Of a stretch of DNA of 46,358 bases, positions 23,684-38,630 are shown piece by piece (position 1 is the stretch's first letter; each line of letters begins with the position of its first letter). The translations under genes and the position numbers were made by a program. Where the stretch lies: contig JAKSKE010000009.1 of the NCBI GenBank assembly GCA_024401895.1, positions 1 to 46,358 on the forward strand. Direction: 5' to 3'. The DNA is from Bacteroidales bacterium. Its GTDB lineage: Bacteria > Bacteroidota > Bacteroidia > Bacteroidales > UBA932. Below the pieces are notes generated by a model. That model had not been told where the DNA came from. It made no database searches and was given only the letters and a program-made list of their open reading frames with translations.

Positions 23684-24418
23684 ATGAAAGCAATGATCTT
23701 TGCCGCAGGTTTGGGTACCCGCCTGCGACCGCTCACCGACGACCGTCCGAAAGCTTTGGTCGAGGTTGAGGGTAAAACCCTTCTGCAGCATACCATAAAC
23801 AACCTGCAGGGATTCGGGTTCAACGACTTTGTCATAAATGTCCACCATTTCGCCGGCAAAATAGAGGAATTCCTGGAAGCCAGCGGCAATCTGGGGGCAA
23901 ACATAGCGCTTTCAAAAGAGGAAGGTGAACTGCTGGACACCGGCGGAGGAATCAAATTCGCCCGTCCTCTGCTGGAGGGAGGCGGCCGTTTCCTCATTCA
24001 TAACGTAGATATTCTCTCCAATCTGGACATTCCCGCAATGTGCGAATCCTGCCCTGCAGACGCACTGTCCTTCCTTCTGGTAAGCGAACGCAATACCACC
24101 AGGTATTTTCTGTTCGACGACGATGCCCGCCTGTGCGGATGGACAAACCTTACCACCGGTGAGGTGAAGAGCCCTTTCGGGAAAATCAATCCCAATAAAT
24201 TCAACCGCTTCGCCTTTGCCGGAGTGCATTGCGTTTCTGACCGCATATTCGCGCAGATGGAAACCTGGCCGGCAAAATTCTCAATTGTAGATTTCTATCT
24301 TCAGGCGGCAAAAGAAAATCCCATCTACGCTTACGTGCAGACGGGACTTGAACTTATCGATGTGGGCAAGATCGAAACTCTGGGGCTTGCCGCCGATTTT
24401 GTGAGAAGAAGACGTTAG
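23684..24418 (+). CDS. MurU-like sugar-1-phosphate nucleotidyltransferase
   Basis: 244 aa. Nucleotide-binding signature at the N-terminus (MIFAAGLGTRLRPLTDDRPKAL), then LLDTGGGIKFARPLL and HNVDILSNLDI (metal Asp), and a late ELIDVGKIETL. Closest in my reading to MurU, the uridylyltransferase that makes UDP-MurNAc from MurNAc-1-phosphate, although a related substrate such as GlcNAc-1-phosphate is possible. It starts at the base after the AmgK/RapZ stop, so the two act as a pair. Its last four bases overlap the convergent CPBP gene. Confidence 0.82.
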   Translation: MKAMIFAAGLGTRLRPLTDDRPKALVEVEGKTLLQHTINNLQGFGFNDFVINVHHFAGKIEEFLEASGNLGANIALSKEEGELLDTGGGIKFARPLLEGGGRFLIHNVDILSNLDIPAMCESCPADALSFLLVSERNTTRYFLFDDDARLCGWTNLTTGEVKSPFGKINPNKFNRFAFAGVHCVSDRIFAQMETWPAKFSIVDFYLQAAKENPIYAYVQTGLELIDVGKIETLGLAADFVRRRR

Positions 24419-25329
24419 TCGAACAGGGCCGGAACCTCTTCGAAACTGCCGGCCTTTTCTTTAGGCTGTATTCTGCGGAATTGCAGTGCGCACAGTGTCA
24501 CAAGCAATGCGCAGGCGACGAACACAATGGCGAATGTCTGCTTGTCCAGCACTTCAGACCAGCTTTCCATATTCTTAAGAGCCGGAACGTTGGACAGCAC
24601 GAGAGCCGTAAAGTTGTTTACTGCGTGCAACAGCATTGTAAGGTAGAGCGACCCTGTCTTCCAGTAAAGATAACCGAAAAGGCAACCCAGCATAAATGCG
24701 GCTATGGCCTGCCAGGGGTTGGCGTGAATGACTGCAAAGAAGACGGCCGAAATTATTATGGCCCATACCGGGCGAATGCTCTTGCCTGTCTTGCTCTTAT
24801 ATTTGAGGAGCCCGCGAAGTACCATTCCGCGACAGAGCCATTCTTCGAAGAAAGGGGCGAATATGGCCACGCAAATAAGGTTCATTACGAAATTGCCCTG
24901 TGTAAGGCTCTCCATAGCGGCCTTGAGACTCTCCGGCATTGGAGGCAGAAGGGTAATGAAGAAGTCGGACAGGAAATTGAGCGCAAGGGTAGCGACAATT
25001 GCCAGAACTGCACAGAGCGCGCCTCCTATGGGAGCGAAATTACTGTTGTTGAGCCTGTATCCCTTTTCGAAGGACTCTCTGTTTCTGGACCGGAGCGATG
25101 CGTAAATCATTGCCGGAATAAACATAAGAGGGTATGACACAAGCATAACTGCATCCATTCCCGAAAAGCCGGTGCCTTTGAGCAGGAGTGCCGGAATCAG
25201 CGCTACGACATTGCCGGCCAGCACACCTACCAGAAGCCAGATGCACAATACGACAATGTCTGAAATTCCCGGTACGAAATGATTGAAATTGGCTAAAATG
25301 CCAAAATTTCCTTTGCGGGTCTTTCTCAT
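24415..25329 (-). CDS. CPBP-family intramembrane glutamic protease
   Basis: 304 aa with about seven hydrophobic segments. Catalytic motifs of the CAAX/Abi family are present: EEWLCR (Glu162, Glu163, Arg167), FFAVIHANPWQ (His202) and TMLLHAVNN (His235). Family members cleave prenylated or other membrane substrates, or protect against self-made bacteriocins; the role here is not readable. It starts one base after the nucleotidyltransferase stop, so it is in that operon, and ends convergent to murU with a 4-base overlap. Confidence 0.88.
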   Translation of the reverse strand: MRKTRKGNFGILANFNHFVPGISDIVVLCIWLLVGVLAGNVVALIPALLLKGTGFSGMDAVMLVSYPLMFIPAMIYASLRSRNRESFEKGYRLNNSNFAPIGGALCAVLAIVATLALNFLSDFFITLLPPMPESLKAAMESLTQGNFVMNLICVAIFAPFFEEWLCRGMVLRGLLKYKSKTGKSIRPVWAIIISAVFFAVIHANPWQAIAAFMLGCLFGYLYWKTGSLYLTMLLHAVNNFTALVLSNVPALKNMESWSEVLDKQTFAIVFVACALLVTLCALQFRRIQPKEKAGSFEEVPALFD

Positions 25330-25330
25330 A

Positions 25331-26260
25331 TCAATAGAGGGGAGAGGGATATATTCCCTTTTCTACAAGTTCGGCGAATTTTGCTACAACCCCGGGACGG
25401 TCTTCGGGGAAGGTTACACCAAACCACTTTGAGCTCGTGCCCAGCACGGTGGTTCCTGCGGTTCCGGCTTTAATCAGACAGTCGATTACGTACGGAATGT
25501 AAAATTCTTTCTTGAGTTCGGTGCCGTAAGCGGCAAGGAAATCGGCGAATGCCTTTTCGCTGTGCGCGAAGTAATCGGGGGTGAATCCCCACATATTCAT
25601 AGAGCAGAGGTCGGTGCCGTTTACTTCAACCTTTTCTTTTGTATTGCTGTTTATACCGAAGATTCGGCCGTCGCCCTCTTTAATTACCTCCAAATGCTCT
25701 ACAACGCTGGTGAGTTTGCGGTCTTTGTCGTAAGAGCAGATGCCGCGGGAAACGCTTCCGTTTTCAGAAAGGGTATTCTGGAGTTCAAAACCCACAATGC
25801 AGTACTCGCCGCTGGAGTTGGAATGATTCCGCAGCCATTCTCCCAGAACCATAAAGGAGTCGCGTCCGTAGTAGTCGTCACCGTTGATTACGGCGAAGGG
25901 CTCCTTTATTACGTCTTTTGCCATCAGCACTGCGTGAGCGGTTCCCCAGGGTTTGACGCGTTCGGGATTTACTTCATATCCGGCCGGAATCTTGTCGAGT
26001 TCCTGACTCACGAATGCAAACTGGAGCTTTTCTCCATCGGGGCAGCGGTAGCTGCCGTATTTTCTCTCAACCAATTGTTCGAATTGTGTGCGGAACGAGT
26101 CCCTTACAATGAAGACAACTTTGCCGAAGCCGGCCTGGACTGCATCGTAAATGGAATAATCCAGAATGGTTTCCCCGTTGGGGCCAAGGGTGTCGAGTTG
26201 TTTAAGTCCACCGTAACGGCTTCCCATTCCGGCGGCCAAAGCAAGAAGTGTAGGTTTCAT
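25331..26260 (-). CDS. sugar nucleotidyltransferase family protein
   Basis: 309 aa. N-terminal nucleotide loop LALAAGMGSRYGGLKQLDTLGPNG, then VVFIVRDSF, PWGTAHAVL and metal-binding VINGDDYYG. The fold is that of sugar-1-phosphate uridylyl/thymidylyltransferases, but the GSRYGGLKQ loop differs from RmlA/GalU and marks a separate family common in Bacteroidota. A UTP:hexosamine- or hexose-1-phosphate role is plausible given the NahK-like and galE genes 8-10 kb away. First gene of a two-gene leftward operon with CPBP. Confidence 0.8.
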   Translation of the reverse strand: MKPTLLALAAGMGSRYGGLKQLDTLGPNGETILDYSIYDAVQAGFGKVVFIVRDSFRTQFEQLVERKYGSYRCPDGEKLQFAFVSQELDKIPAGYEVNPERVKPWGTAHAVLMAKDVIKEPFAVINGDDYYGRDSFMVLGEWLRNHSNSSGEYCIVGFELQNTLSENGSVSRGICSYDKDRKLTSVVEHLEVIKEGDGRIFGINSNTKEKVEVNGTDLCSMNMWGFTPDYFAHSEKAFADFLAAYGTELKKEFYIPYVIDCLIKAGTAGTTVLGTSSKWFGVTFPEDRPGVVAKFAELVEKGIYPSPLY

Positions 26261-26289: not shown

Positions 26290-26307
26290 CAAAATTACTT
26301 ATTTTTG
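26290..26307. promoter_or_regulatory. paired divergent -7 boxes
   Basis: Minus-strand TAATTTTG (26297-26290) serves the nucleotidyltransferase (ATG 26260); plus-strand TATTTTTG (26300-26307) serves the DivIC-like gene (ATG 26325). Only two bases separate them. No clear -33 elements. Confidence 0.4.
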
Positions 26308-26631: not shown

Positions 26632-26639
26632 TAAATTTG
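26632..26639 (+). promoter_or_regulatory. -7 box of the kinase locus
   Basis: TAAATTTG, 48 bases before the ATG at 26688. A TTTG at 26618-26621 is too close to be its -33 element. Suggests that the phosphorylation locus is transcribed separately from the DivIC-like gene. Confidence 0.4.
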
Positions 26640-26687: not shown

Positions 26688-28283
26688 ATGGTATTGGAAA
26701 ATGGTGCTGTTTTTGCCGACAGATACATCCTTGTCAAATTATTGGGTAAAGGAGGCTTCTCTGAGGTTTGGCTGGCACAAGACAATAAATCGGGACTGGA
26801 CATTGCCCTCAAGGTATATGCCCCCAACGGAGGGCTCGACGACAGGGGAACTGAAATGTTCTCCAAGGAGTTCTCTCTGGTGTTCAACTCAAACCATACC
26901 AATATCCTTACTCCCACCTATTTTGACGTATTCGAAAGGTCTCCCTATCTGATTATGCCTTATTGCGGATCGGGAGGGGGTACATCTCTCATAGGCAAAG
27001 CCACGGCAGATGAAGTTCTTCATCTGATTCACGATGTGGCCGCAGGATTGGCCTACCTGCACAGTCAGAATCCACCTATTATACATCAGGACATTAAGCC
27101 TGACAACATTCTCCTCAACGACCACGGAGATTATGTAATTACCGATTTCGGAATCAGCACCAAGGCCAGAAGCACTTTGCGCAAAAGCGCTATGGCAACT
27201 GAAAATTCCGGGGGAACCTGTGGATATATGGGTCCTGAAAGATTCTCTAAAAATCCCGCTCCGGTCAAAGCCAGTGACATATGGTCTTTGGGTGCAATGG
27301 CCTATGAACTTCTGGAAGGCAATACCCCTTATGGCAACATAGGCGGGGTAATGCAGAAAAACGGCGCAGAAATTCCGGATATCAATGCCGATGTGCCGGA
27401 ATCCCTCAAAGAACTGATCTATTCGTGTCTGGCCCAGGAGACCTGGGACCGGCCTTCGGCTGAAGACATTGTAAAGACTACCGAATCCCTGTTGGCCCAG
27501 AAAGCCGATTTCCCGGGGACCGTGCTGGACAACGGCCAAACGGTGAGGCAGGAAAAACCGGAGAAAAAAGTTAATTGGAAACTGATAATCGGCTGTGGCG
27601 CAGCGGCTGTGGTGGCGATTGTCCTATTCCTTTTGCTAAGCAAGCCGTTTACTCCCAAGGTTGACGAAGAGGCGCAGGCTGCCGCCCTGGCCCGCCTGGA
27701 ATTTGTCAAGGACAGTCTGAGAAATGTGATTCTCGATAACCCCGATGCCAACGGTGGAATAACCGACACAAGTACCGGAGAGAGCATAGAAATATTCACG
27801 TCGGGGTATTATACTGCTTACGGAAAAAAACTGATAAAAGACTCAACCTCTTTCGATACCGGCATTGAGGTCCTGAAAAGGGTTATAGACAAAAAATACA
27901 AGTCATCTGCCGAGGCTGCGGCCGTTATGGCGTATGTGTACGCTATAAGAAATGCAGGTTCCCAGACAGACCATATTTATCTTGGTCTGTTCAATCAGGC
28001 TGTTCTGGAAATGGTAGAGCCGAATCCGTCCTTGTCGGAACAGTACAGCACTCTTGCCCTGGAGCTTGATCCGGGCTGCTACCAGGCAATGTTTGAGAAA
28101 TGTATGGATTTCATCGGGGGTCCCCAAAGAGGTTTTGAACAGCGTCGGCTGGCAGACCTCAGAGATATGTTCGAAGCGGGCAAACAGGCTTCTTTCGATG
28201 CCAACGACCTCGTTTACAATCAGCTGTTTGCCAATTTCGAGGACAAATTCCGCGATGCTATATACAAGAACGTTAAAAAGTAA
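26688..28283 (+). CDS. transmembrane Ser/Thr protein kinase with HQD catalytic loop
   Basis: 531 aa. Cytoplasmic Hanks-type kinase domain (about 10-270): Gly loop GKGGFSEV (20-27), Lys42, catalytic loop HQDIKPDN (133-140), DFG at 153-155, then GGTCGYMGPERF and the DIWSLGAMAYELL helix. The usual HRD Arg is Gln134, making it a non-RD kinase, and APE is GPE. One transmembrane helix at about 299-317 (IIGCGAAAVVAIVLFLLLS). The last 210 residues lie outside the membrane and look helical with TPR-like spacing (SEQYSTLALELDPGCYQAMFEKCM); no PASTA repeats. First gene of the phosphorylation locus; the exported WG-like gene follows 9 bases later. Catalytic Asp, Lys and Asn are kept, so it is probably active. 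Confidence 0.9.
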   Translation: MVLENGAVFADRYILVKLLGKGGFSEVWLAQDNKSGLDIALKVYAPNGGLDDRGTEMFSKEFSLVFNSNHTNILTPTYFDVFERSPYLIMPYCGSGGGTSLIGKATADEVLHLIHDVAAGLAYLHSQNPPIIHQDIKPDNILLNDHGDYVITDFGISTKARSTLRKSAMATENSGGTCGYMGPERFSKNPAPVKASDIWSLGAMAYELLEGNTPYGNIGGVMQKNGAEIPDINADVPESLKELIYSCLAQETWDRPSAEDIVKTTESLLAQKADFPGTVLDNGQTVRQEKPEKKVNWKLIIGCGAAAVVAIVLFLLLSKPFTPKVDEEAQAAALARLEFVKDSLRNVILDNPDANGGITDTSTGESIEIFTSGYYTAYGKKLIKDSTSFDTGIEVLKRVIDKKYKSSAEAAAVMAYVYAIRNAGSQTDHIYLGLFNQAVLEMVEPNPSLSEQYSTLALELDPGCYQAMFEKCMDFIGGPQRGFEQRRLADLRDMFEAGKQASFDANDLVYNQLFANFEDKFRDAIYKNVKK

Positions 28284-28292
28284 GTGGCATAT

Positions 28293-29708
28293 ATGTATAA
28301 ACATCTTATAATTTCCCTTTCAATGTGCTGTATGGCACTGGCCGCATATTCTCAGAATCTGAACTTCATATCTGACGAGTATGATATGATTGAGCCAATG
28401 TCGGACGATTGCTTCAGATACAGACAGAACAACAAAGTCGGAATACTCAAGAGTGACGGAACTCTTGTGCAGGAGTGGACTGCCGATTATATCACGGCTT
28501 TTCACGACGGAATGGCCCTGGTTCTGGTAAAGAGGGACGGCCGTTATCGCCTGCACAGGCTGGTTGACATTGACCTGGAGGTAAGAGACCTTGAAAAGGA
28601 TATGTTCGTAGATGCCTACCCGTTTTATTCGGGCGGATATCTTCCCGTTTATACGAAAACCAATAGAACCGCTTACGGCTTTATTGACAGGTATGGCTCA
28701 ATGGTGCTCAAGGATGAATATCCCGAAATCAAACCCTGCATAAGTGGCAAGGCCCTGGTTGTAAGGGTAAACAGTGGCAGAACCGACAAATGGACAGAGG
28801 TGGATTTGTCAGAACGGACCAAGTCGGTTGTTAAAGGTGTCTTTGGTTCTATTGGTATAAATACCATCAGTATCCCCAAGGAGAATGCGGAATATTATTC
28901 TTCTTGCGAAGACAGGAAAGACATTCTGACATATCTGGACAATTATCATTACAAGACAGAAGCAAACGGGCTCAAGGCTTTCAAGGACGACGACACAGGG
29001 CTTTACGGGTATAAGGACGCTTACGGCTATGTAGCAGTTCCGTCCCAGTTCAAATTTGCTTCAGATTTCATTAACGAAACGGCTGCGGTTACCCTGCCTA
29101 ACGGAAAGGCCAGGCTTATGAGGCTGCAAGGAAAGCCGGCAAGGCTCATTTCCAGCTATGTCCTGGATGCTACAGGGAACTATACTTTCCGTTTCCATCT
29201 GATTCTGCCCTCGGAAGTGCAGAAAAAAGTGGACGCAAATCCGTCGTTGCTTACGGTACGTTGCCTTTCCGAATACGGTATAGTTGAAATGCCGGAGCAC
29301 AAGGGCATCAACTACTACGAATTCCGCTCTGGCTCGAAGAAAAAAACCGTGGAGGTAATTTACGACGGCCTTGTAGTGGCAAGGCAGAACCTCGAAAAGG
29401 AATCTGTGGAAATCGTTGACCTTAAACTGTCCGCTTCCAGGACTTCGGTAAGGGCGAATGTAAATGACAGGGCCAGCGTTCAGTTCACAGTATTCAACCC
29501 CGGTTCCACCGAAGTGACTTTCGAAATCAGCAGTTCGGGAAAATCTGCCAACCTGTCCGAGACCACAATGACGGTGGCCCCCAACAGCTCGGTGAACTTT
29601 ACGGCATCCTACTACAACATAAACACAGATACTTCCAGCACTATTACTATTTCGGGGAACAATATCCTCCAAACGAGTGTCAGAGTTCAACTGAGTACGT
29701 ATTTTTAA
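28293..29708 (+). CDS. exported protein with WG-like repeats and an Ig-like C-terminal domain
   Basis: 471 aa from ATG 28293 (a GTG nine bases earlier is in frame). Signal peptide MYKHLIISLSMCCMALAAYSQ. Residues about 25-300 hold units resembling WG repeats: KVGILKSDGTLVQEW, AYGFIDRYGSMVLKDEYPEI, GLYGYKDAYGYVAVPSQFKF. The last 90 residues (from about LKLSASRTSVRANVN) look like an Ig-fold: NDRASVQFTVFNPGSTEVTF, then VAPNSSVNFTASYYN. It should be periplasmic or surface-exposed and could present a signal to the kinase's outer domain; that is inferred from position alone. Confidence 0.75.
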   Translation: MYKHLIISLSMCCMALAAYSQNLNFISDEYDMIEPMSDDCFRYRQNNKVGILKSDGTLVQEWTADYITAFHDGMALVLVKRDGRYRLHRLVDIDLEVRDLEKDMFVDAYPFYSGGYLPVYTKTNRTAYGFIDRYGSMVLKDEYPEIKPCISGKALVVRVNSGRTDKWTEVDLSERTKSVVKGVFGSIGINTISIPKENAEYYSSCEDRKDILTYLDNYHYKTEANGLKAFKDDDTGLYGYKDAYGYVAVPSQFKFASDFINETAAVTLPNGKARLMRLQGKPARLISSYVLDATGNYTFRFHLILPSEVQKKVDANPSLLTVRCLSEYGIVEMPEHKGINYYEFRSGSKKKTVEVIYDGLVVARQNLEKESVEIVDLKLSASRTSVRANVNDRASVQFTVFNPGSTEVTFEISSSGKSANLSETTMTVAPNSSVNFTASYYNINTDTSSTITISGNNILQTSVRVQLSTYF

Positions 29709-29711
29709 TAT

Positions 29712-30092
29712 ATGAGATGCAATAATTGCGGCTGGGAAAACCCGGACGGCAACATAGTGTGCAGCAAATGCGGCAACCTTCTCGAGAAAAGAAGTTCTCA
29801 CGGCGGCGGAAACGGAGTAATCCATTTTTCCTATTCACCTGTGAGACCGGATTCATATTCGAACCGGGAATCCTCTTCATACGGGAAGTCCGACAAGAAT
29901 CTGAGGACTTGTGCCAAATGCGGATACCCGGCTACAAATTATTCCGACGTATGTCCCTGGTGCGGGACTGCATTTGACTCTGCAAAAGATGTGTTCCGGC
30001 TTGTCTCATTGGAAGGAGACGGAATATCCCTTGAACTCAGGGAGGGGGAGACGGTAGAAATTGGTGGAAAAAAATACAGATTTGAAAAATGA
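29712..30092 (+). CDS. double zinc-ribbon protein
   Basis: 126 aa. Two four-cysteine zinc ribbons: CNNCGWENPDGNIVCSKCGN (residues 3-22) and CAKCGYPATNYSDVCPWCGT (about 68-87). They are joined by a Ser/Gly/Tyr-rich, probably flexible linker with many phosphorylatable residues. A C-terminal segment of about 30 residues is beta-like (DGISLELREGETVEIGGKKYRF) and recalls the start of an FHA or SHOCT-like fold, but I cannot assign it. Cytoplasmic. Its stop overlaps the next kinase start by four bases, so the two are translationally coupled; it may be an adaptor or substrate. Confidence 0.8.
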   Translation: MRCNNCGWENPDGNIVCSKCGNLLEKRSSHGGGNGVIHFSYSPVRPDSYSNRESSSYGKSDKNLRTCAKCGYPATNYSDVCPWCGTAFDSAKDVFRLVSLEGDGISLELREGETVEIGGKKYRFEK

Positions 30093-31396
30093 GCGGCCAC
30101 AGTTCATCACATATTGTCCCATCGAGATGCGACTGCCGCACCGGTGACCGAATAGACGGCAAATATACTGTCGTCGCTGAACTTGGCAGCGGCTCTTTCG
30201 GCCAGGTGTTCAAGGTCAAGGATTACACGGGGGAAGTTCGGGCTCTCAAACTGCTGCGGCTGTGGGATGTGCCTTCAGACATCCGCGATGCGCTAATAGA
30301 GCGCTTTGATATGGAATTCAAGACCGGACGAATTCCCGACAGGAATCTTGTGCATTCCTCCGACTCCGGCTACCTGAACGGGAACCCTTACTTCGTAATG
30401 GAATTCTGTCCAGGCGGGGATATCTGCAAATACATTGGCAGACGCGATGTGAATATGTCGAGGATTGCCATTGACATATTGAACGGACTTAAGGCATTGC
30501 ACTCCAATGGAAAGGTTCACAGAGACCTGAAACCCGAGAATGTGCTTATCAGGGAAGACGGGTCGGTAGCCCTTACCGACTTCGGTATCAGCGGAGACAA
30601 GAACAAGCGCCTCACCGAAAGAAATATTTTCGGCAAGCCGGCCCAGATGTTCGGTACCTACGCATATATGCCGCCGGAGCAGTCGAACAGAGAAAGGGGA
30701 ATGGCCACGGTTCTTCCCACAACCGATATATTTTCATTCGGTGTGCTGATGTATCAGCTCCTCACCGGAGTCCTTCCGTTCGGGAAATTGGAAGACCACA
30801 ACGATTTGGCTAAATACCTCATAAACAGCAAGGCCGAAAATTGGAACAAAAATGCGTTGGCGGCTGTCCCGAACTCGTCCCAATGGACAAAGCTCATTTC
30901 CGGTTGCCTGAAGGCATCGTGGAAAACCAGGATTCAGAGCGCAGAAGAGGCAATAAAACTGGTTCCCGGAGACAGGTACAGTCCTCGGGTATCTCCCGCA
31001 TCCGCGGCGCAGGCTGAACCGAAGAAGCAACACGCGAAAGGCGTCTATCTGACCATAGCTCAAGGAAAGGATTACGGTGCAGAGTTCAATCTGGCCGAAT
31101 GTCTGGATCCGGTTCATAAAAATCTCATAACGGTGGGGCTGGCTGATTCCAACAACATAACCTTGACCGATTTCAGTGAATCCTATACGTCCAGAAAACA
31201 TTTTTCTATAGAAAAGGGCAGTAAAGACCGGTGGGTGATAAGAGATGGACAGTGGAATGAGCACACACGGGAATGGAAACGCTCCACGAACGGAACCTGG
31301 GTGAATTCCGGCGATGTCGATGACTCCGGTACCGTGCTGTCGGACGGAGATATAATATCGGCAGGAAACATAAAGATAAAATTCAACATTTTCTAA
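30089..31396 (+). CDS. soluble Ser/Thr protein kinase with C-terminal FHA domain
   Basis: 435 aa, no transmembrane helix. Kinase domain about 20-290: Gly loop GSGSFGQV (33-40), Lys54, catalytic HRDLKPEN (144-151), DFG at 164-166, GTYAYMPPEQ and DIFSFGVLMYQLL, all canonical. Linker about 295-320. FHA domain about 322-435: ITVGLADSNNITL, then the phosphothreonine-binding SRKH, then STNGTWVN and SDGDIISAGNIKIKF. The kinase can thus both write and read Thr phosphorylation. Coupled to the zinc-ribbon gene; the FHA/membrane gene follows 15 bases later. Confidence 0.9.
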   Translation: MSGHSSSHIVPSRCDCRTGDRIDGKYTVVAELGSGSFGQVFKVKDYTGEVRALKLLRLWDVPSDIRDALIERFDMEFKTGRIPDRNLVHSSDSGYLNGNPYFVMEFCPGGDICKYIGRRDVNMSRIAIDILNGLKALHSNGKVHRDLKPENVLIREDGSVALTDFGISGDKNKRLTERNIFGKPAQMFGTYAYMPPEQSNRERGMATVLPTTDIFSFGVLMYQLLTGVLPFGKLEDHNDLAKYLINSKAENWNKNALAAVPNSSQWTKLISGCLKASWKTRIQSAEEAIKLVPGDRYSPRVSPASAAQAEPKKQHAKGVYLTIAQGKDYGAEFNLAECLDPVHKNLITVGLADSNNITLTDFSESYTSRKHFSIEKGSKDRWVIRDGQWNEHTREWKRSTNGTWVNSGDVDDSGTVLSDGDIISAGNIKIKFNIF

Positions 31397-31411
31397 CTAA
31401 TACAAATCTAT

Positions 31412-32395
31412 ATGGAAACAAACTACAAAAGGACAGTAGCCGGCTCAATAGGCGCCGGTATCTCCTCTGTTTTCAGTGCTTCGGGAAAGTCATACTATAT
31501 TCTCGAGCACAAGACAGAATCTCAGTTCCACCACGCTGGTGAGTCACAGAAGATTATTATCGACCAGATCGAGATTGGTAGGGCCGCTTCCTGCCAGGTA
31601 AGGTTCGATGAGAGCCAGGACACGGTGAGCAGACGCCACGCCGCAATTGTCAGAGAAGGCAACGGATGGAAAATCATCAATCTCTCACAGACAAATGCAA
31701 CTTTCGTGAACGGACAGCCCATTCAGGGAGAATGGAACCTTTCATCGGGAGATGAAATCCGCCTCTCTTCCAGAGGCCCCGTTATGGGATTCATAGTTCC
31801 TCAGGGCAGCAGCAGTATGGTAAGCAGCATCGGCCTTACCGAGAGAATGAACCTTTTCCGCAAACAGGCACTCCGCCCTTACAAAACTGCCATCATTGTT
31901 ATTTGCGTTGTATTCATTCTTGCTATAGCAGCGCTCGTTGCCTGGAACGTTCACAGCAACAAGCAGTACCAGCAGGCTATCCAGCAGAAGGAGACTGAAA
32001 TTTCAGACATCCATAAGCAGATTGACATTAAGAATATGGAATACGATATTATGAAGCAGCAGCTGGAAAATGCCAAGGACCAGTCTGAAGATGCTATCAA
32101 TGAGATTCGTCAGAAAATGTCAAAGAGCGAAGCCGAGAAACAGGAACTTCTGGACAAGAGCGAAGCCCTCAGAAGCGAAATCGAGTCACTTAAGAAAACG
32201 TCATCGGAGCCAAAAGAAGTTGCACCTGCACCCGCTGCCCCTGCTGTAAATGAGAATGCCGCTCCTAAGGAAAATGCTGCTCCGGCAGAAACTGCAACTA
32301 AGAAAGAAGAAGCCGTAGAGAAAGAACAGCCCAAGAAAAAGACAATTCAGGAATTGATTAATGAAACCAAGCGAGAGGATCCCGTAATTAAGTAA
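31412..32395 (+). CDS. FHA-domain membrane protein with periplasmic coiled coil
   Basis: 327 aa. An N-terminal cytoplasmic FHA domain (about 45-130) has IGRAASCQVRF, SRRHAAIV and NATFVNG. The Gly-Arg and Ser/Arg/His residues that bind phosphothreonine are kept; NGT is NAT. A single transmembrane helix lies at about 158-180 (TAIIVICVVFILAIAALVAWNV). A coiled coil follows (about 185-255, QQKETEISDIHKQIDIKNME and onward), then a Pro/Ala/Glu-rich tail (about 265-305) and a short basic/acidic end. It could carry a phosphorylation signal across the membrane or tether the envelope. Probable substrate or reader of the two kinases. Confidence 0.87.
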   Translation: METNYKRTVAGSIGAGISSVFSASGKSYYILEHKTESQFHHAGESQKIIIDQIEIGRAASCQVRFDESQDTVSRRHAAIVREGNGWKIINLSQTNATFVNGQPIQGEWNLSSGDEIRLSSRGPVMGFIVPQGSSSMVSSIGLTERMNLFRKQALRPYKTAIIVICVVFILAIAALVAWNVHSNKQYQQAIQQKETEISDIHKQIDIKNMEYDIMKQQLENAKDQSEDAINEIRQKMSKSEAEKQELLDKSEALRSEIESLKKTSSEPKEVAPAPAAPAVNENAAPKENAAPAETATKKEEAVEKEQPKKKTIQELINETKREDPVIK

Positions 32396-32423
32396 ACCAA
32401 CTAATTTTTAATATTAACCAGTT

Positions 32424-32861
32424 ATGAAAAAAGTACTTTACATTGTTTTGGCTGCATTGACCTTCACTATGTTCGAAGGCAGCAGCTCTGCACAGACATC
32501 AAGGAACGATGTTGTTATCAGCTGGGATCAGCTCAGCGCAGATGCTTCACTGAGGCAGTTCAAGAAAGCCAGCAAGCAGAACCAGATTGAGATTCTTCAC
32601 AACCTTGTGGCAAAGGCTAATGAAGAGTTCTACAAGTGCAAAGAGATTGGCGACCTCGACGTTCTCAATGATCAGATGGACCTGATTCGTTTTTACTACA
32701 CACAGGCTAAGATGCAGTCAACTTCCATCAACGGCCAAATCAACTCTCTCCAGAGAAAGATAGACAGAGTTGTTCAGAGGTACACCGGCCAGGGCGTTAT
32801 CAAGATTGAAGGCGGCGTTCGCAATCCTTATGTAAACAACGGTCAGGACATTACCGAATAA
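32424..32861 (+). CDS. small exported helical protein of the kinase locus
   Basis: 145 aa, family not recognised. Signal peptide about 1-24 (MKKVLYIVLAALTFTMFEGSSSAQ). The mature part is mostly helical and polar (QFKKASKQNQIEILHNLVAK, then NGQINSLQRKIDRVVQRY) and ends in a short extended tail (IKIEGGVRNPYVNNGQDITE). Coiled-coil pairing with the periplasmic part of the preceding FHA protein is possible. It is the last gene before a strong hairpin. Confidence 0.75.
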   Translation: MKKVLYIVLAALTFTMFEGSSSAQTSRNDVVISWDQLSADASLRQFKKASKQNQIEILHNLVAKANEEFYKCKEIGDLDVLNDQMDLIRFYYTQAKMQSTSINGQINSLQRKIDRVVQRYTGQGVIKIEGGVRNPYVNNGQDITE

Positions 32862-32881
32862 CCTTCTTTTATGCAATTGCA

Positions 32882-32914
32882 ATGGACCGGTACGGCTCAC
32901 AAGTGCCGGTCCAT
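32882..32914 (+). terminator. 12-bp hairpin before the PP2C gene
   Basis: Stem 32882-32893 with 32903-32914 (arms ATGGACCGGTAC and GTGCCGGTCCAT, one G-T pair), loop of nine bases. It is followed by TT, then A-rich sequence, and a T6 run only at 32925-32930. A partial terminator or an RNA-stabilising hairpin would both fit. It lies 20 bases after the small exported gene's stop. Confidence 0.5.
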
Positions 32915-32934
32915 TTAAAAAACTTTTTTATACT

Positions 32935-33840
32935 ATGTCACCTATCACATTCAAGCTTACCGCTGCAACGAACGTTGGAATGGTTCGAAAGAATAACGAG
33001 GATAATTTTATTGTTTGTCCCGATTTGTCTGCCAGCCTGTGGAGTGTGCCCGAAGATGCCGACTCCGTAAGCAATTTGAGCGAAGAAGGCTGCATTCTAT
33101 GCGTTGCCGACGGAATGGGGGGAATGAATGCGGGAGAGGTGGCATCCGATATTGCGGTAAACAGTATCAAAGACAGTTTTTCTTCCAGGAAATCGAAACT
33201 GTCTTTAGACAAGTCCAATTTCCCCGCTATCGAATCTTTTATGAAAAAGGCCATTGTGACGGCCGACAAAAAAATAAAAGAGAAAGCCAAGTCGGACAGT
33301 TCTACCAATGGGATGGGTACGACAATAGTCCTGGCTTGGATAAAATCGTCTTACGTAAACGTAGCCTGGTGCGGAGACTCCCGGGCATATCTTTTCAATC
33401 CCGTGTCGGGGCTGATTCGTCTTTCCAAGGATCATTCCTATGTTCAGCAGCTCATCGACAACGGAAGCCTCGACCCGGAGATGGCATTTTATCATCCGGA
33501 CAGCAATATTATCACAAGAAGCCTCGGAGACAGCTGCAATAAGGCTCAGCCAGATTATATGCACCGTGTGATATCGGCCGGAGACATTATTCTCCTGTGC
33601 ACCGACGGCCTCTGCGGCCTCATTCAGGACGATGAGATACAAAAAATCCTGATGGCGGAAAAAGACTGTCTTGAGCGGTGCAAGTCGGTTCTCATTGACG
33701 CCGCGTTGGCGGCAGGCGGGCACGACAACGTTACAGTTGCCCTGTACCAGTGCGTAGGCGATGAATTGGAAGAAGACTTCCAAAAGACAAATCCCAACAT
33801 AGTTCCCCGCAGACGCGGCCTCTTTTGGTGGAAGAAGTAA
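32935..33840 (+). CDS. PP2C-family Ser/Thr protein phosphatase
   Basis: 301 aa, cytoplasmic. Metal-binding motifs of PPM/PP2C enzymes are present: RKNNEDNF (Glu22/Asp23), VADGMGGMNAGE (Asp59), WCGDSRAYLF, SLGD, LLCTDGLCG (Asp224) and GGHDNVTVAL (Asp264). It should remove phosphate from Thr/Ser residues set by the two kinases. Last gene of the locus; separated from the others by 73 bases containing a strong hairpin, so its expression may be set at a different level. The C-terminus is basic and aromatic (RRRGLFWWKK). Confidence 0.92.
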   Translation: MSPITFKLTAATNVGMVRKNNEDNFIVCPDLSASLWSVPEDADSVSNLSEEGCILCVADGMGGMNAGEVASDIAVNSIKDSFSSRKSKLSLDKSNFPAIESFMKKAIVTADKKIKEKAKSDSSTNGMGTTIVLAWIKSSYVNVAWCGDSRAYLFNPVSGLIRLSKDHSYVQQLIDNGSLDPEMAFYHPDSNIITRSLGDSCNKAQPDYMHRVISAGDIILLCTDGLCGLIQDDEIQKILMAEKDCLERCKSVLIDAALAAGGHDNVTVALYQCVGDELEEDFQKTNPNIVPRRRGLFWWKK

Positions 33841-33889: not shown

Positions 33890-34900
33890 ATGAATGTTCT
33901 TCTTACAGGTGGCGCCGGTTTCATAGCCACACACACGATTGTGGAACTCCGCGCGGCGGGCCACGATGTTTTCGTTGTAGATAATTTTGCAAATTCAAAG
34001 CCCGAGGCTCTTGCCAGAGTGGAGCGTATCACAGGCAGGGGTGTTCCTTTTTTGGAGGCCGACGTATGCGACGCGGCTGCAATGGACAAACTCTTTGCCG
34101 AACATAATTTCGACGCGGTGATTCACTTTGCGGGGCTTAAGGCTGTGGGAGAATCGGTATCAAAGCCGCTCGAATATTACCGGAACAACCTGTGCAGCAC
34201 GTTCACCCTGCTGGAAGCAATGCGCAGTCACGGCTGCAACAAACTCATATTCTCGTCTTCTGCAACGGTTTACGGGAGCCCTGCAGAGATTCCTATTACC
34301 GAGAACTGCCCCAAAGGAATCTGTACCAACCCGTACGGAGAGACGAAATCGATGATAGAGCGCATTCTTACCGACTTCCAGGCCGCCAACAGTGAGTGGA
34401 GTATAGTGCTGCTGCGCTATTTTAACCCAATAGGCGCGCACAGCAGCGGACTCATTGGCGAAAGTCCCAACGGAATACCCAATAACCTTATGCCTTACAT
34501 TACCCAGACGGCCATTGGAAAGCGCACCGAGCTGTCGGTTTTCGGCAACGATTACCCCACCCCCGACGGCACTGGCGTGCGCGACTATATTCACGTGGTT
34601 GACCTTGCCCGCGGGCACGTCGCAGCCCTGCGCGCACTTCAGAAAGGCGCGGGCGTAAACATTTACAATTTGGGAACCGGGCACGGTTACTCGGTGCTGG
34701 ACGTAGTCAAGGCCTTCGAAAAAGCAAACGGAATAAAAATCCCGTACAGCATAAAAGAACGCCGTCCGGGAGATATCGCCACCTGCTATTGCAAGCCCGA
34801 CAAGGCGCTGCGCGAACTTGGCTGGAAGGCCGAATACGACCTGGAACAGATGTGCCGCGACAGCTGGAACTTCCAGAAAAACAATCCCGAAGGAATCTGA
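33890..34900 (+). CDS. galE: UDP-glucose/UDP-hexosamine 4-epimerase
   Basis: Interconverts UDP-glucose and UDP-galactose, and possibly the N-acetyl forms. 336 aa, family length. NAD-binding TGGAGFIATHT at the N-terminus; catalytic Ser in FSSSATVYG; Tyr149 and Lys153 in NPYGETK; GVRDYIHVVDLARGHVAAL further on. Cytoplasmic. Convergent, ten bases apart, with an N-acetylhexosamine kinase-like gene, which supports a role in amino-sugar salvage. Confidence 0.94.
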   Translation: MNVLLTGGAGFIATHTIVELRAAGHDVFVVDNFANSKPEALARVERITGRGVPFLEADVCDAAAMDKLFAEHNFDAVIHFAGLKAVGESVSKPLEYYRNNLCSTFTLLEAMRSHGCNKLIFSSSATVYGSPAEIPITENCPKGICTNPYGETKSMIERILTDFQAANSEWSIVLLRYFNPIGAHSSGLIGESPNGIPNNLMPYITQTAIGKRTELSVFGNDYPTPDGTGVRDYIHVVDLARGHVAALRALQKGAGVNIYNLGTGHGYSVLDVVKAFEKANGIKIPYSIKERRPGDIATCYCKPDKALRELGWKAEYDLEQMCRDSWNFQKNNPEGI

Positions 34901-34910
34901 AAATACCCTG

Positions 34911-35996
34911 CTAAAGGCCGGCAACGTAAGCCGTCATCTCGTCCAAGTGACTCAGTGCACTATGGAAGAGAGCCATTTGATTACGGGTGCGCACCAGGTT
35001 GTGCTGGGGGTATTTGATCTTATAATAAGTGTCGCCGTTAATGTAGTCGGCAAAAAAGCGCACGGCCTGCATATAAGGGAAAAGCAGTGCGGCATAGGGA
35101 ATGTTCTCTTTCTCTATGGGGGTGATGAACACCGATGCCGATTCAAGGTATCCTTTCACAAAGGCCTTGAACGTTTCCATCTTGAAAGCAACCTTATCTG
35201 TTTCGGGACTGTCCTCGGCAACAGTATTGGCTGCGGTGCGCAGGAAATCTCCAATGTCTGAAAATACGAAGCTGGGCATTACGGTATCAAGGTCTATGAC
35301 GCATAGCACGCTGCCGCTGTGGTCGAACAGCATATTGTTCACCTTTGTGTCGCAGTGGCAGATTCGCTTGGGCAGCACTCCTTCGCGGTACAGGTGCTCG
35401 GCCTTGCACATTTCGGAATCATACTTGGCAATGTCGGCGAGAATTTCCTGCACTTCGGGGTCGGAAACCCTTCCTGCGGCATCTTTCTCGACAGCCTCTG
35501 CGAGCTGACGCGAACGGAGCTCCATATTGTGAAAGTCGGGAATGGTCTCTCCCAATTTTTCGGGAAGGTCGGTAAGCATTGCCTCAAAGTTGCCGAAGGC
35601 TTTGCCGGCATAGTATGAGTTCTCTTCGTCGGCGCTTTCGCGGGTAACGGTGTCGGAAATGAATACCGACACTCTCCAATACTTACCCTCGTGCAGAAGG
35701 TAGGTCTTGTCGCTGCCTTTGGGGTGAACGTAGGTGAGCACCTTGCGGTCTATGTCGTCGGCACCACTGGCTTCGAGTTTGCCGCGGATGTGCCGCGTCA
35801 CCGCATCTATGTTGTGCTGCAACAGTTCGACATCGGTGAAAATGGCATTATTGATGCGCTGAAGAACATAGTCGGGGCATCCGTCAGACGTAATGACTTT
35901 GAACGTATCGTTGATAAGACCGTTTCCCAGAGGTTTTACCTCGAGTACTTCCCCGGATATCTCAAATTTCCGGGCAATTTCAATGAATTCTTTCAT
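34911..35996 (-). CDS. N-acetylhexosamine 1-kinase-like phosphotransferase
   Basis: 361 aa aminoglycoside-phosphotransferase fold. It closely resembles the bifidobacterial NahK/LnpB kinase that phosphorylates GlcNAc and GalNAc at C1. Shared blocks: PLGNGLINDTFKV, VLQRINNAIF, YWRVSVFISDTV, AFGNFEAMLTDLP, catalytic CHCDTKVNNMLFD, CVIDLDTVMPSFVFSDIGDFLR and IKYPQHNLVRTRNQM. Together with galE and the nucleotidyltransferase at 25331-26260 it would convert free N-acetylhexosamines to UDP-sugars. Substrate preference is inferred from recalled family similarity. Confidence 0.83.
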   Translation of the reverse strand: MKEFIEIARKFEISGEVLEVKPLGNGLINDTFKVITSDGCPDYVLQRINNAIFTDVELLQHNIDAVTRHIRGKLEASGADDIDRKVLTYVHPKGSDKTYLLHEGKYWRVSVFISDTVTRESADEENSYYAGKAFGNFEAMLTDLPEKLGETIPDFHNMELRSRQLAEAVEKDAAGRVSDPEVQEILADIAKYDSEMCKAEHLYREGVLPKRICHCDTKVNNMLFDHSGSVLCVIDLDTVMPSFVFSDIGDFLRTAANTVAEDSPETDKVAFKMETFKAFVKGYLESASVFITPIEKENIPYAALLFPYMQAVRFFADYINGDTYYKIKYPQHNLVRTRNQMALFHSALSHLDEMTAYVAGL

Positions 35997-36066: not shown

Positions 36067-37536
36067 ATGAGAAAAATAACGATTCTGCTAATTTCCATTC
36101 TGGTTATGGTATCCTGCTCGGCGAATACCGGCAGAAACGGCTCCCACGAAGTAACAAAGCCGGAAGATTTGGAAGGATGCACTGCCGGCTGTATTGCGGG
36201 GTCACTGGTTGATCTCAATTTTGAGGAATTGTGTCCCGGTGCAATCAAACAGGTTTACAACAATTCGGTAGACCTTCTTACGGCATTGGACAATGGAAGG
36301 GTACAGTTCACTGTTGAAGACACTATTCTGGTCTTGGGGATCGACCCTAACCTTCATCCCATTGAACCGCTTTGCCGGGTACCTGACATAGATGGAGACA
36401 TTGCCGCGGCGTTCCGCAAAAGCGATGCCGCGCTGTGCGCCCGGTTCAATGAGTTCCTCGCGGGAATCAAAGCCGACGGCACTTATGGTGCAATGCGGGA
36501 CAGATGGATTTCAGACAAGTATACTGTTTCTGAAATGCCGGAAATAGAAACTTTTACCGAAGGCCAGCCCCTTGTAGTGGGCACGATGGTGCAAATCCCG
36601 TGCTTCTTTATAAAGAACGGAGAATGGGTCGGATTCGAAGCCGAATTAATGAAGCGTTTCGCTGCTTATCTGCACAGACCTCTAGAGGTTGAGGCCTATG
36701 ATTTTTCGGCCTTGATGGCGAGCCTGAAGACAGGGGTGATAAATGTTTGGTGCTCATTCATTACTGTCAATGAAGAACGCTCCAAGGAAGTCCTTTTTTC
36801 GGACCCGTATTATTTTTCTCCGGTTATGGTTTTCAGGAAAGCAACGGCCAGTCAGGCAGCGGACATCCCTTTCTACAAGAAAGTTTCTAACAGCTTCAAT
36901 AACAATATTCTGGTTGAAGACAGGTGGAAAATGCTTTTGGACGGGTTGTGGGAGACCATTGTCATTTCTTTCTTCTCTCTGCTTTTCGGGTCTCTGCTGG
37001 GCGCGTTGATATGCCTGCTCAGAATGTCGGGGAACAGATTCCTTTCCAATTTTGCAAAGGTGTACGTGGAGATTCTGCGGGGCGTGCCTATGCTTGTGCT
37101 GCTTATGGTCATGTTCTACCTGGTGCTATCGTCCACGGGCCTTTCCGGCCGTTGGGTGGCGGTAATATCCTTCGCCATCAATTTTTCTGCCTATGCCTGT
37201 GAAATTTTCAGGACCGGAATAGGCGCCATAGACAAGGGACAGACCGAGGCCGGCCTGGCAATGGGTTTCACCAGGGTTGGGACATTCTTCAACTTTATTG
37301 TTCCGCAGGCTTTGAAAAATATCCTTCCCGTATTCAAGAACGAGGCGGTTTCCCTTATCAAGGGCACGTCTATCGTAGGCTACGTGGCTATACAGGATTT
37401 GACAAAGACCAGCGATATGATTCGCGCCAGAACATTCGATCCCTTCTTTCCGCTCATCATAATCTCTATCATTTATTTCTTCCTTGCCTGGCTGTTCGGC
37501 AAAGCTCTGGACCGTATCAGTAAAAAAATCGCTTAA
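36067..37536 (+). CDS. amino-acid ABC transporter: binding domain fused to permease
   Basis: 489 aa. Lipoprotein-type signal ending at Cys17. About 33-150 resembles the second half of a family 3 solute-binding protein ([14 protein letters not shown] to [15 protein letters not shown]). About 168-260 resembles the first half ([30 protein letters not shown] to [18 protein letters not shown]). The two halves are thus in swapped order. About 287-489 is a HisM/GlnP-type permease: [14 protein letters not shown], then the coupling EAA segment [25 protein letters not shown]. Imports a polar amino acid such as glutamine. The ATPase gene follows two bases later. Confidence 0.85.
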
Positions 37537-37538
37537 AT

Positions 37539-38630
37539 ATGATTACAGTAAAGCATCTTTCAAAAGTCTTTGATGACAAAGAAAAACCTTTTATGGTCCT
37601 TCGCGATGTTAACTGTGAAATCAAGAGGGGTGAAGTTATTTCCATAATAGGTCCTTCCGGTACGGGGAAAAGCACATTTTTGCGCTGTCTCAACCGTTTG
37701 GAAACGCCCTCCGGCGGCGAAATCATTGTAGATGGAGTAAATATCCTGGACAAGAATACCGACATTTCGGCTGTCCGTCGCAAAATGGGTATGGTATTCC
37801 AGAACTTCAACCTGTTCAATCATCTTTCGGTACTGGAAAACGTTACCACAGGGCCGGTCAAACTTCTGGGGATGAGCCGCGCGGAAGCGGAAAAACAGGC
37901 GTTGGAACTCCTGAAGATGGTGGGACTTGCAGAAAAGGCCGGAGCTATGCCATCGGAGCTTTCGGGCGGGCAGAAACAAAGGGTCGCGATTGCCCGCTGT
38001 CTTTCAATGAAGCCCGAAATAATCCTCTTCGACGAGCCCACGTCGGCCCTTGATCCCACAATGGTAGGGGAGGTGCTCTCGGTTATCCGCCAACTCGCCC
38101 GTCAGGGAATGACAATGGCAATCGTCACCCACGAGATGAAATTCGCAAAGGATGTAAGCACCCGAATCTTCTTTATGACCGATGGAGTCATTTATGAGGA
38201 AGGCACTCCGGAGGTTATATTCAACAAGCCGTCCAAGGTTGCCACCACGGCGTTTATCAATAAAATACGCGGAATTGACTTTACTTTGACCAGTCGCGAC
38301 TGTGACTTCCCCGGAATGGATTCGGCCATAGAAGCCTTCTGCTCTAAATACGCCATTGCAGAAGACGTGTCAGAGAAGATTAAAAACATTGTAAGACAGA
38401 TGATAGCCGAAATAATTCCAATGAACGGCAGGGTTGTCATCAATGTAGACTACAGTGAGAAGAAAGACAGGATATACATCTCGTTCTTCTGCGAAAACTG
38501 CAGGGAAGCGATTCTTTCAGACGATAGGGTTGCCACAATTTTCGACGCGCGCATCAGGCCTCTCTGTATGACCGTCCACGACGACCCCGACGGCTCCAAC
38601 CGATTGGTCAGACTGAAGATTGGCTGTTAG
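37539..38630 (+). CDS. amino-acid ABC transporter ATPase with C-terminal extension
   Basis: 363 aa. Residues 1-245 are a GlnQ/HisP-type ATPase: Walker [11 protein letters not shown]-loop [18 protein letters not shown], signature LSGGQKQR, Walker [13 protein letters not shown], then H-loop IVTHEM. Such ATPases usually end near 240-250 aa. Here about 116 further residues follow ([22 protein letters not shown], then [23 protein letters not shown] and [10 protein letters not shown]). The extension recalls an anti-sigma-type HATPase fold without obvious nucleotide motifs; it may regulate the pump. It forms one unit with the upstream fusion gene. Confidence 0.9.

Follow-up and report, generated by a model that had tools for sequence, protein, structure and literature searches.

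Does a cluster of seven adjacent genes in a Bacteroidales genome, encoding among others two Ser/Thr kinases, an FHA-domain membrane protein and a PP2C phosphatase, belong to one of the known systems of such composition, and which of its genes form the functional unit? The cluster lies at positions 26688–33840 of contig JAKSKE010000009.1 (assembly GCA_024401895.1; Bacteroidota, UBA932), which was analyzed over its full 46,358 nucleotides and is hereafter called the window. Gene sets of the kinase/FHA/PP2C kind are already known from the control of type VI secretion systems (T6SS), from KKP cassettes and from the GarA/OdhI switch. All seven open reading frames (ORFs) are intact and complete and run rightward, on the plus strand, and the domains named for them in a preliminary description made from the sequence were recovered in the Pfam search. 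The conserved unit, however, is not the seven genes of that description but a core of five, namely those for the membrane kinase k1, a zinc-ribbon protein, the soluble kinase k2, the FHA-membrane protein (hereafter the hub) and the PP2C phosphatase; the remaining two, for a WG protein and a small exported protein, vary by lineage.

This partition follows from the comparison of related loci. A hub profile built from four proteins retrieved 141 relatives from the species-genome collection, 80 of which were kept; 57 of these loci have sufficient flanking sequence (at least 3 kb before and at least 6 kb after the hub gene), and the other 23 were left out of the linkage counts. In tblastn searches, a k1-type kinase, k2, the hub and PP2C were found together in 57 of the 57 loci and the zinc-ribbon gene in 52, such that all five core genes, on the same strand, are present in 52/57. 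The zinc-ribbon gene was missed by tblastn in L020, L021, L026, L027 and L092, yet was called there by the ORF search, which detected it in 71 of the 80 loci. Because the relatives were selected via the hub, the 57/57 figure measures co-localisation given the hub protein. Gene order is conserved as well, so that the homologues are not scattered: 30 of the 52 full sets have the order zinc ribbon-k2-hub-PP2C-k1, 19 share the order of the window (k1-zinc ribbon-k2-hub-PP2C) and three have zinc ribbon-k2-k1-hub-PP2C, as scored with the best separate k1-type match, many loci having at least two such kinases. The WG protein was found in one of the 57 loci by tblastn (weaker matches in 8/80 by a looser ORF search) and the small exported protein in seven (10/80 by the looser search); a separate WG-type cluster occurs in 13 loci (one member scanned). 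The core also stays together without the genes that flank it in the window, as DivIC and galE matched none of the 80 loci at a threshold of 1e-4. The DivIC-like gene upstream of the cluster is real (9.4e-11); the hint at division that had been drawn from it did not hold up, given that DivIC keeps its other neighbour without the module in the genus. Of 23 same-genus DivIC loci, 17 have the window's other neighbour of DivIC (25331–26260; nucleotidyltransferase-like by eye, no Pfam match at 1e-5) within 1.5 kb, and the 29 same-genus loci viewed (window excluded) showed no module gene within 1.5 kb of DivIC.

The hub (31412–32395) comprises an N-terminal tail with a KR[T/S] motif, an FHA domain (residues 54–118; Pfam FHA, 2e-17), a juxtamembrane motif (approximately 139–158), the single membrane helix detected by the hydropathy scan (159–177) and a coiled-coil-like outer region. 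In an alignment of the hubs of 77 of the 80 loci and the window (78 sequences; the hub genes of L015, L016 and L086 went uncalled), the FHA domain is present in all, and Arg57, Ser73, His76, Asn95 and Asn100, which we take to be the phosphate binders, are invariant (78/78); the FHA phosphate-binding residues of the GarA/OdhI-type switch are accordingly intact. The tail has the sequence Tyr-Lys-Arg-[Thr/Ser]: position 8 is Thr in 53 hubs and Ser in the other 25, position 7 is Lys or Arg in 76, and position 12 is Ser or Thr in all 78. Between the reader domain and the membrane, eight further residues are invariant (Arg145, Leu148, Phe149, Gln152, Ala153, Leu154, Pro156 and Tyr157). Compared with solved structures, the hub profile found GarA and OdhI among the FHA proteins, with GarA as the top match. 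The hub shares with GarA and OdhI, which regulate metabolism as soluble proteins with a tail switch, the placing of the FHA domain after an N-terminal tail in which a Thr/Ser is conserved; it differs from them in its membrane helix and outer part. That outer part is the variable portion of the hub: a Trypsin_2 match was obtained in 44/78 hubs, and by the protease His and Ser columns, as located by pattern in one alignment, both residues are kept in 39, neither is in place in 25, the region is absent in nine (including the window) and five are mixed. The protease-less form of the window is common to eight near relatives. Fusions of FHA, transmembrane and trypsin segments are seen in the hub genes of L041, L055, L063 and others, and one hub group, mostly of Prevotella type, has other residues in place of both the protease His and Ser.

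The two kinases differ in architecture. The k1 protein (26688–28283) consists of a kinase domain (14–264; Pkinase, 5.6e-42) with an HQD (non-RD) catalytic loop, a single membrane helix predicted by hydropathy (299–317) and an outer region of about 214 residues, and k2 (30089–31396) is a soluble HRD kinase (Pkinase, 2.5e-39) with a C-terminal FHA domain (1.5e-9). Catalytic motifs are intact in both, and the same division is seen in the relatives, where most k1-type kinases are of the non-RD form (HQD in 102/117) and k2 kinases are RD (HRD in 71/76, the other five being unmatched by the pattern). The FHA domain of the window k2 has Leu351 at the position of the phosphate-binding Arg; among 72 aligned sequences (71 relatives longer than 380 residues and the window), Arg is found in 68 and the window has the only Leu. 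The double zinc-ribbon protein (29712–30092; DZR, 3.9e-9), with eight Cys, is a shortened relative of zinc-ribbon/FHA-like scaffold proteins. Among the relatives (32 of 72 aligned, 33 sequences with the window), two linker columns hold Thr in 31/31 and 32/32 ungapped rows, and the window protein lacks both; by short patterns, on which these classes rest, the C-termini of the 33 divide into 19 that are FHA-like but degenerate, four with the FHA-type Ser-x-x-His and ten, the window among them, with neither pattern. The phosphatase (32935–33840; PP2C, 4e-15) is Stp1/IreP-like, scoring 219.6 bits, just below the NCBIfam cut-off of 230; the hydropathy scan weakly flags its residues 212–230.

Of the lineage-specific proteins, for which signal peptides and lipoprotein Cys residues were assigned by eye, the exported WG protein (28293–29708) has a signal peptide and WG repeats well above the cut-off (1.1e-9; 38.6 bits vs. 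25.6), in line with the preliminary description, whereas the Ig-like portion of that description corresponds to a weak C-terminal BACON_2 match below threshold (0.0018; 18.6 bits vs. 25). The small exported protein (32424–32861) has no Pfam family match above the cut-off, and some relatives carry a lipoprotein-like Cys.

The distribution of the cassette is rare and patchy in Bacteroidales. Within the window's genus, the hub was strongly detected in three of 37 genomes (G000, the window genome itself, G002 and G027); it was also strong in one of 24 other genomes, with six more matches that were weak and hardly extended beyond the FHA domain. It was found in 8/247 genomes of the order (G254 having the protease part only) and in 2/247 of the phylum, the window genome being counted in both. 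Bacteroides sp. 519 also carries the module (L089). We take the host labels of the 80 loci to denote Bacteroidales or groups within it, the exceptions being L031 and L042 (vague) and L053 (Clostridia). In a quick hub tree (7 of 75 inner branches starred), the window hub groups with L014, L017–L023 and L027, and the G002 hub (L042) falls among protease-bearing relatives. The separate positions of two copies from the same genus suggest, with moderate support from the tree, gain and loss or transfer.

The reading that we favour, with a confidence somewhat short of even, is that the cassette is an accessory phospho-switch at the inner membrane of Bacteroidales, GarA-like and passing a cytoplasmic signal outward. 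Five co-conserved genes, their order, the hydropathy topology, the intact kinase motifs, the intact hub FHA domain and the lineage-dependent variation of the outer and neighbouring parts form its observed portion, and we infer the direction of signalling, the phosphorylation sites and the output. The state of the envelope would be sensed by the outer region of k1, and possibly also by the exported proteins, and would set kinase activity; k1 and k2 would phosphorylate the Thr or Ser of the Lys-Arg-Thr tail of the hub and, in most relatives, also the Thr-Val motifs of the zinc-ribbon scaffold. The phosphorylated tail may then bind the FHA domain of the same hub or that of a partner, as in GarA/OdhI, or else it is a partner protein that, once phosphorylated, may be bound by the hub FHA domain. 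The invariant juxtamembrane segment would transmit the change to the outer part of the hub, trypsin-like in those relatives with the domain match and, in the window, a coiled coil that probably acts with the small exported and WG proteins, and PP2C would reset the switch. If the k1 outer region senses the envelope and the hub relays to its outer part, then sensing would run inward via the kinase and action outward via the hub.

Several observations weigh against this scheme. The outer region of the window k1 has no match at E up to 1 among 1246 called neighbour proteins of the relatives, so that its role as a sensor is unsupported by kin. Positions 37 and 143 of the hub are likewise Ser or Thr in 78/78, and the whole tail is conserved; hence, the exchange of Thr for Ser alone is no proof of phosphorylation. 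The linker Thr columns of the zinc-ribbon proteins lie in low-complexity sequence, where the MAFFT alignment may itself have helped to produce them. The loss of the k2 FHA Arg together with the absence of the linker Thr residues makes the window circuit atypical, and proteolysis is not a universal output because neither protease residue is in place in 25/78 hubs and the region is absent in 9/78. Finally, the scheme is built on sequence comparison.

Whether the cassette is a known control pathway under another guise can be judged feature by feature. In the T6SS threonine phosphorylation pathway, which comprises PpkA, PppA and Fha and gates some type VI systems, a kinase, an FHA protein and a PP2C phosphatase are likewise encoded together; the cassette differs in that it is not, as a rule, linked to or co-resident with T6SS structural genes, the hub has its own transmembrane helix and outer region, and a second kinase and a zinc-ribbon protein are added. 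Of the 80 genomes with the module, 50 were searched for the T6SS marker TssC (PF17541), which was present in five and missing from 45, the completeness of these genomes being unstated; it was absent in G000 (76% complete), G002, G027 and G051 and found in the positive control G054, several of these genomes being incomplete. VipB (PF05943) was dropped as a marker in favour of TssC because it also missed G054, a genome with T6SSiii. The cassette is therefore not tied to type VI secretion, and the writer/reader/eraser set with membrane-spanning parts that had been described for the window stays a unit in further genomes, at sites away from type VI clusters, rather than being always embedded in a known secretion locus.

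The alternative that survives best, possible but rather doubtful in our estimate, holds that the set gates an envelope complex of TssR-like and outer-membrane proteins, which the window copy has swapped for the WG protein. In 10 of the 80 loci (L014, L015, L017–L022, L027 and L058; also L011:669-3074) the module has a TssR homologue as its neighbour, and nine of these loci, all but L058, are among the closest hub relatives of the window. All ten aligned homologues match the N-barrel and VWA models and 6/10 match TssR_C; compared by hhalign with the TssR of the TssC-bearing G054 locus, the homologue scored a probability of 97.9% (E 5.5e-13). Most TssR loci also encode three further proteins, one exported (about 510 residues), one in the membrane (250 residues) and a second exported one (200 residues), and in several, the TssR gene is followed by a gene whose beginning looks ABC-ATPase-like (by eye). 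None of the nine TssR-bearing genomes tested (all but that of L058) had a TssC match. The hub itself weakly matches the T6SS TagH model TIGR03354 (2.5e-6; 27.6 bits vs. a cut-off of 120.25). Against this alternative, TssC is scarce and has no match in the window genome (76% complete), the 250- and 200-residue partners did not match the one TssP tried, and no TssR match was obtained in 70 of the 80 loci, within the available flanks, nor in the window genome. The same evidence separates the cassette from the T6SSiii membrane complex TssNQOPR, which it resembles in that a TssR homologue adjoins the module in those relatives, though not in the window: the window genome has no TssR or TssC match (TssN, O, P and Q were not searched there). 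TssR is a component of the T6SSiii membrane complex (PMC10781749), and the main text of that paper does not contain the words "kinase" and "FHA".

It appears unlikely that the set is a KKP-type anti-phage cassette, in which infection-caused loss of phosphatase activity would let the kinases halt growth and the phosphatase would thus act as their antitoxin. Both consist of two kinases, one with an FHA domain, and a PP2C phosphatase, the patchy accessory distribution fits, and the kinase domains match the PADLOC mad6 (3.3e-57 and 6e-50) and PD-T4-6 models; these matches, however, cover the kinase domain, which is common to unrelated kinases. The KKP triplet consists of a PP2C, a kinase-FHA protein and a kinase with a cold-shock domain, and neither window kinase has a cold-shock domain match (Pfam, E up to 0.5). 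A search of 50,697 phage records gave no hub match, and the flanks in the window are transport, sugar-nucleotide and nucleotide-kinase genes, whereas KKP sets are, in the available part of PMC11341870, mostly found in prophages, and the membrane and exported parts of the cassette have no counterpart in KKP as described in that part. Carriage by plasmids was likewise rejected, the single plasmid match (Streptomyces) covering the FHA domain only.

The TerY-P triad consists of a vWA protein, a kinase and a PP2C phosphatase, and the cassette shares with it the kinase, the phosphatase and a zinc ribbon; in agreement with the preliminary description, however, no vWA family was matched in any of the seven window proteins (Pfam), and the vWA protein of the sister loci is TssR-like and exported-looking (by eye). 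Thus, the cassette departs from the T6SS pathway, KKP, TerY-P and T6SSiii in one tested defining feature or another, and no description of this gene set was found in an open-access literature search limited to titles and the starts of abstracts, most subscription papers and preprints lying outside it.

That the window copy is simply decaying is improbable too: the shortened zinc-ribbon protein, the k2 Arg-to-Leu replacement and the lack of a trypsin domain would fit loss of function, but none of the seven frames is broken, both kinases keep their catalytic motifs and the hub its FHA residues, the eight near relatives lack the protease as well, a reduced zinc-ribbon C-terminus is also seen in 9/32 aligned relatives, and the k1-first order is that of 19/52 loci.

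Within the window, the spacing between the k1 and WG genes is 9 bases with the preferred start ATG 28293 (an alternative GTG at 28284 abuts the k1 stop codon), and the subsequent spacings are, in order, 3 bases, a 4-base overlap, 15, 28 and 73 bases. A motif scan of the plus strand between 26000 and 34200 for the −7-like motif TAnnTTTG, the consensus in Bacteroides, gave four matches, at 26300 (before divIC), 26632 (before k1), 33861 (before galE) and 33982 (within galE), and none within the seven genes. The possible −7 box before k1, TAAATTTG (26632–26639, plus strand), lies 48 bases 5' of the gene. The placement of these boxes would fit a single transcription unit with divIC and galE outside, a pattern that is only suggestive because no −33 partner was found for any of them in the scanned region; sigma-70 promoter and terminator scans gave chance-level results. 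The flanks (23684–26260 and 33890–35996) contain NTP_transferase, a CAAX-type protease, the nucleotidyltransferase-like gene, galE and an APH-type kinase gene, and further downstream, a fusion of a solute-binding domain and an ABC permease domain (36067–37536) adjoins an ABC ATPase gene (37539–38630).

The genes that accompany the core in relatives, and that are possible outputs, are diverse. Exported BACON/TPR proteins number 54 in 50 loci, with BACON in 44 of the 54; a family of about 300 residues occurs in 29 loci; and a gene for a MotA/TolQ/ExbB-like channel is inserted between the k2 and hub genes in L013 (10154-10891) and L061 (9210-9962), with Pfam matches in both, the MotA/ExbB-like cluster spanning seven loci. 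A broader proposal, which we regard as tentative and less probable than the phospho-switch as such, is that the cassette represents a class of envelope devices governed by cytoplasmic Ser/Thr phosphorylation, with a common five-gene core driving periplasmic outputs that can be exchanged: a hub-fused trypsin-like protease, giving kinase-gated periplasmic proteolysis, a TssR-based complex borrowed from T6SSiii or common to both, MotA/ExbB-like channels or, in the window, the exported WG/BACON and helical proteins. If the reading is right, a periplasmic protease or envelope complex would be controlled across the inner membrane by Ser/Thr phosphorylation; for Bacteroidota, no mechanism of this sort was found among the titles and abstract beginnings of the open-access literature searched. 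The question of the role of TssR outside type VI secretion arises as well, and the near-fixed core with its changing outer parts provides many natural variants for testing.

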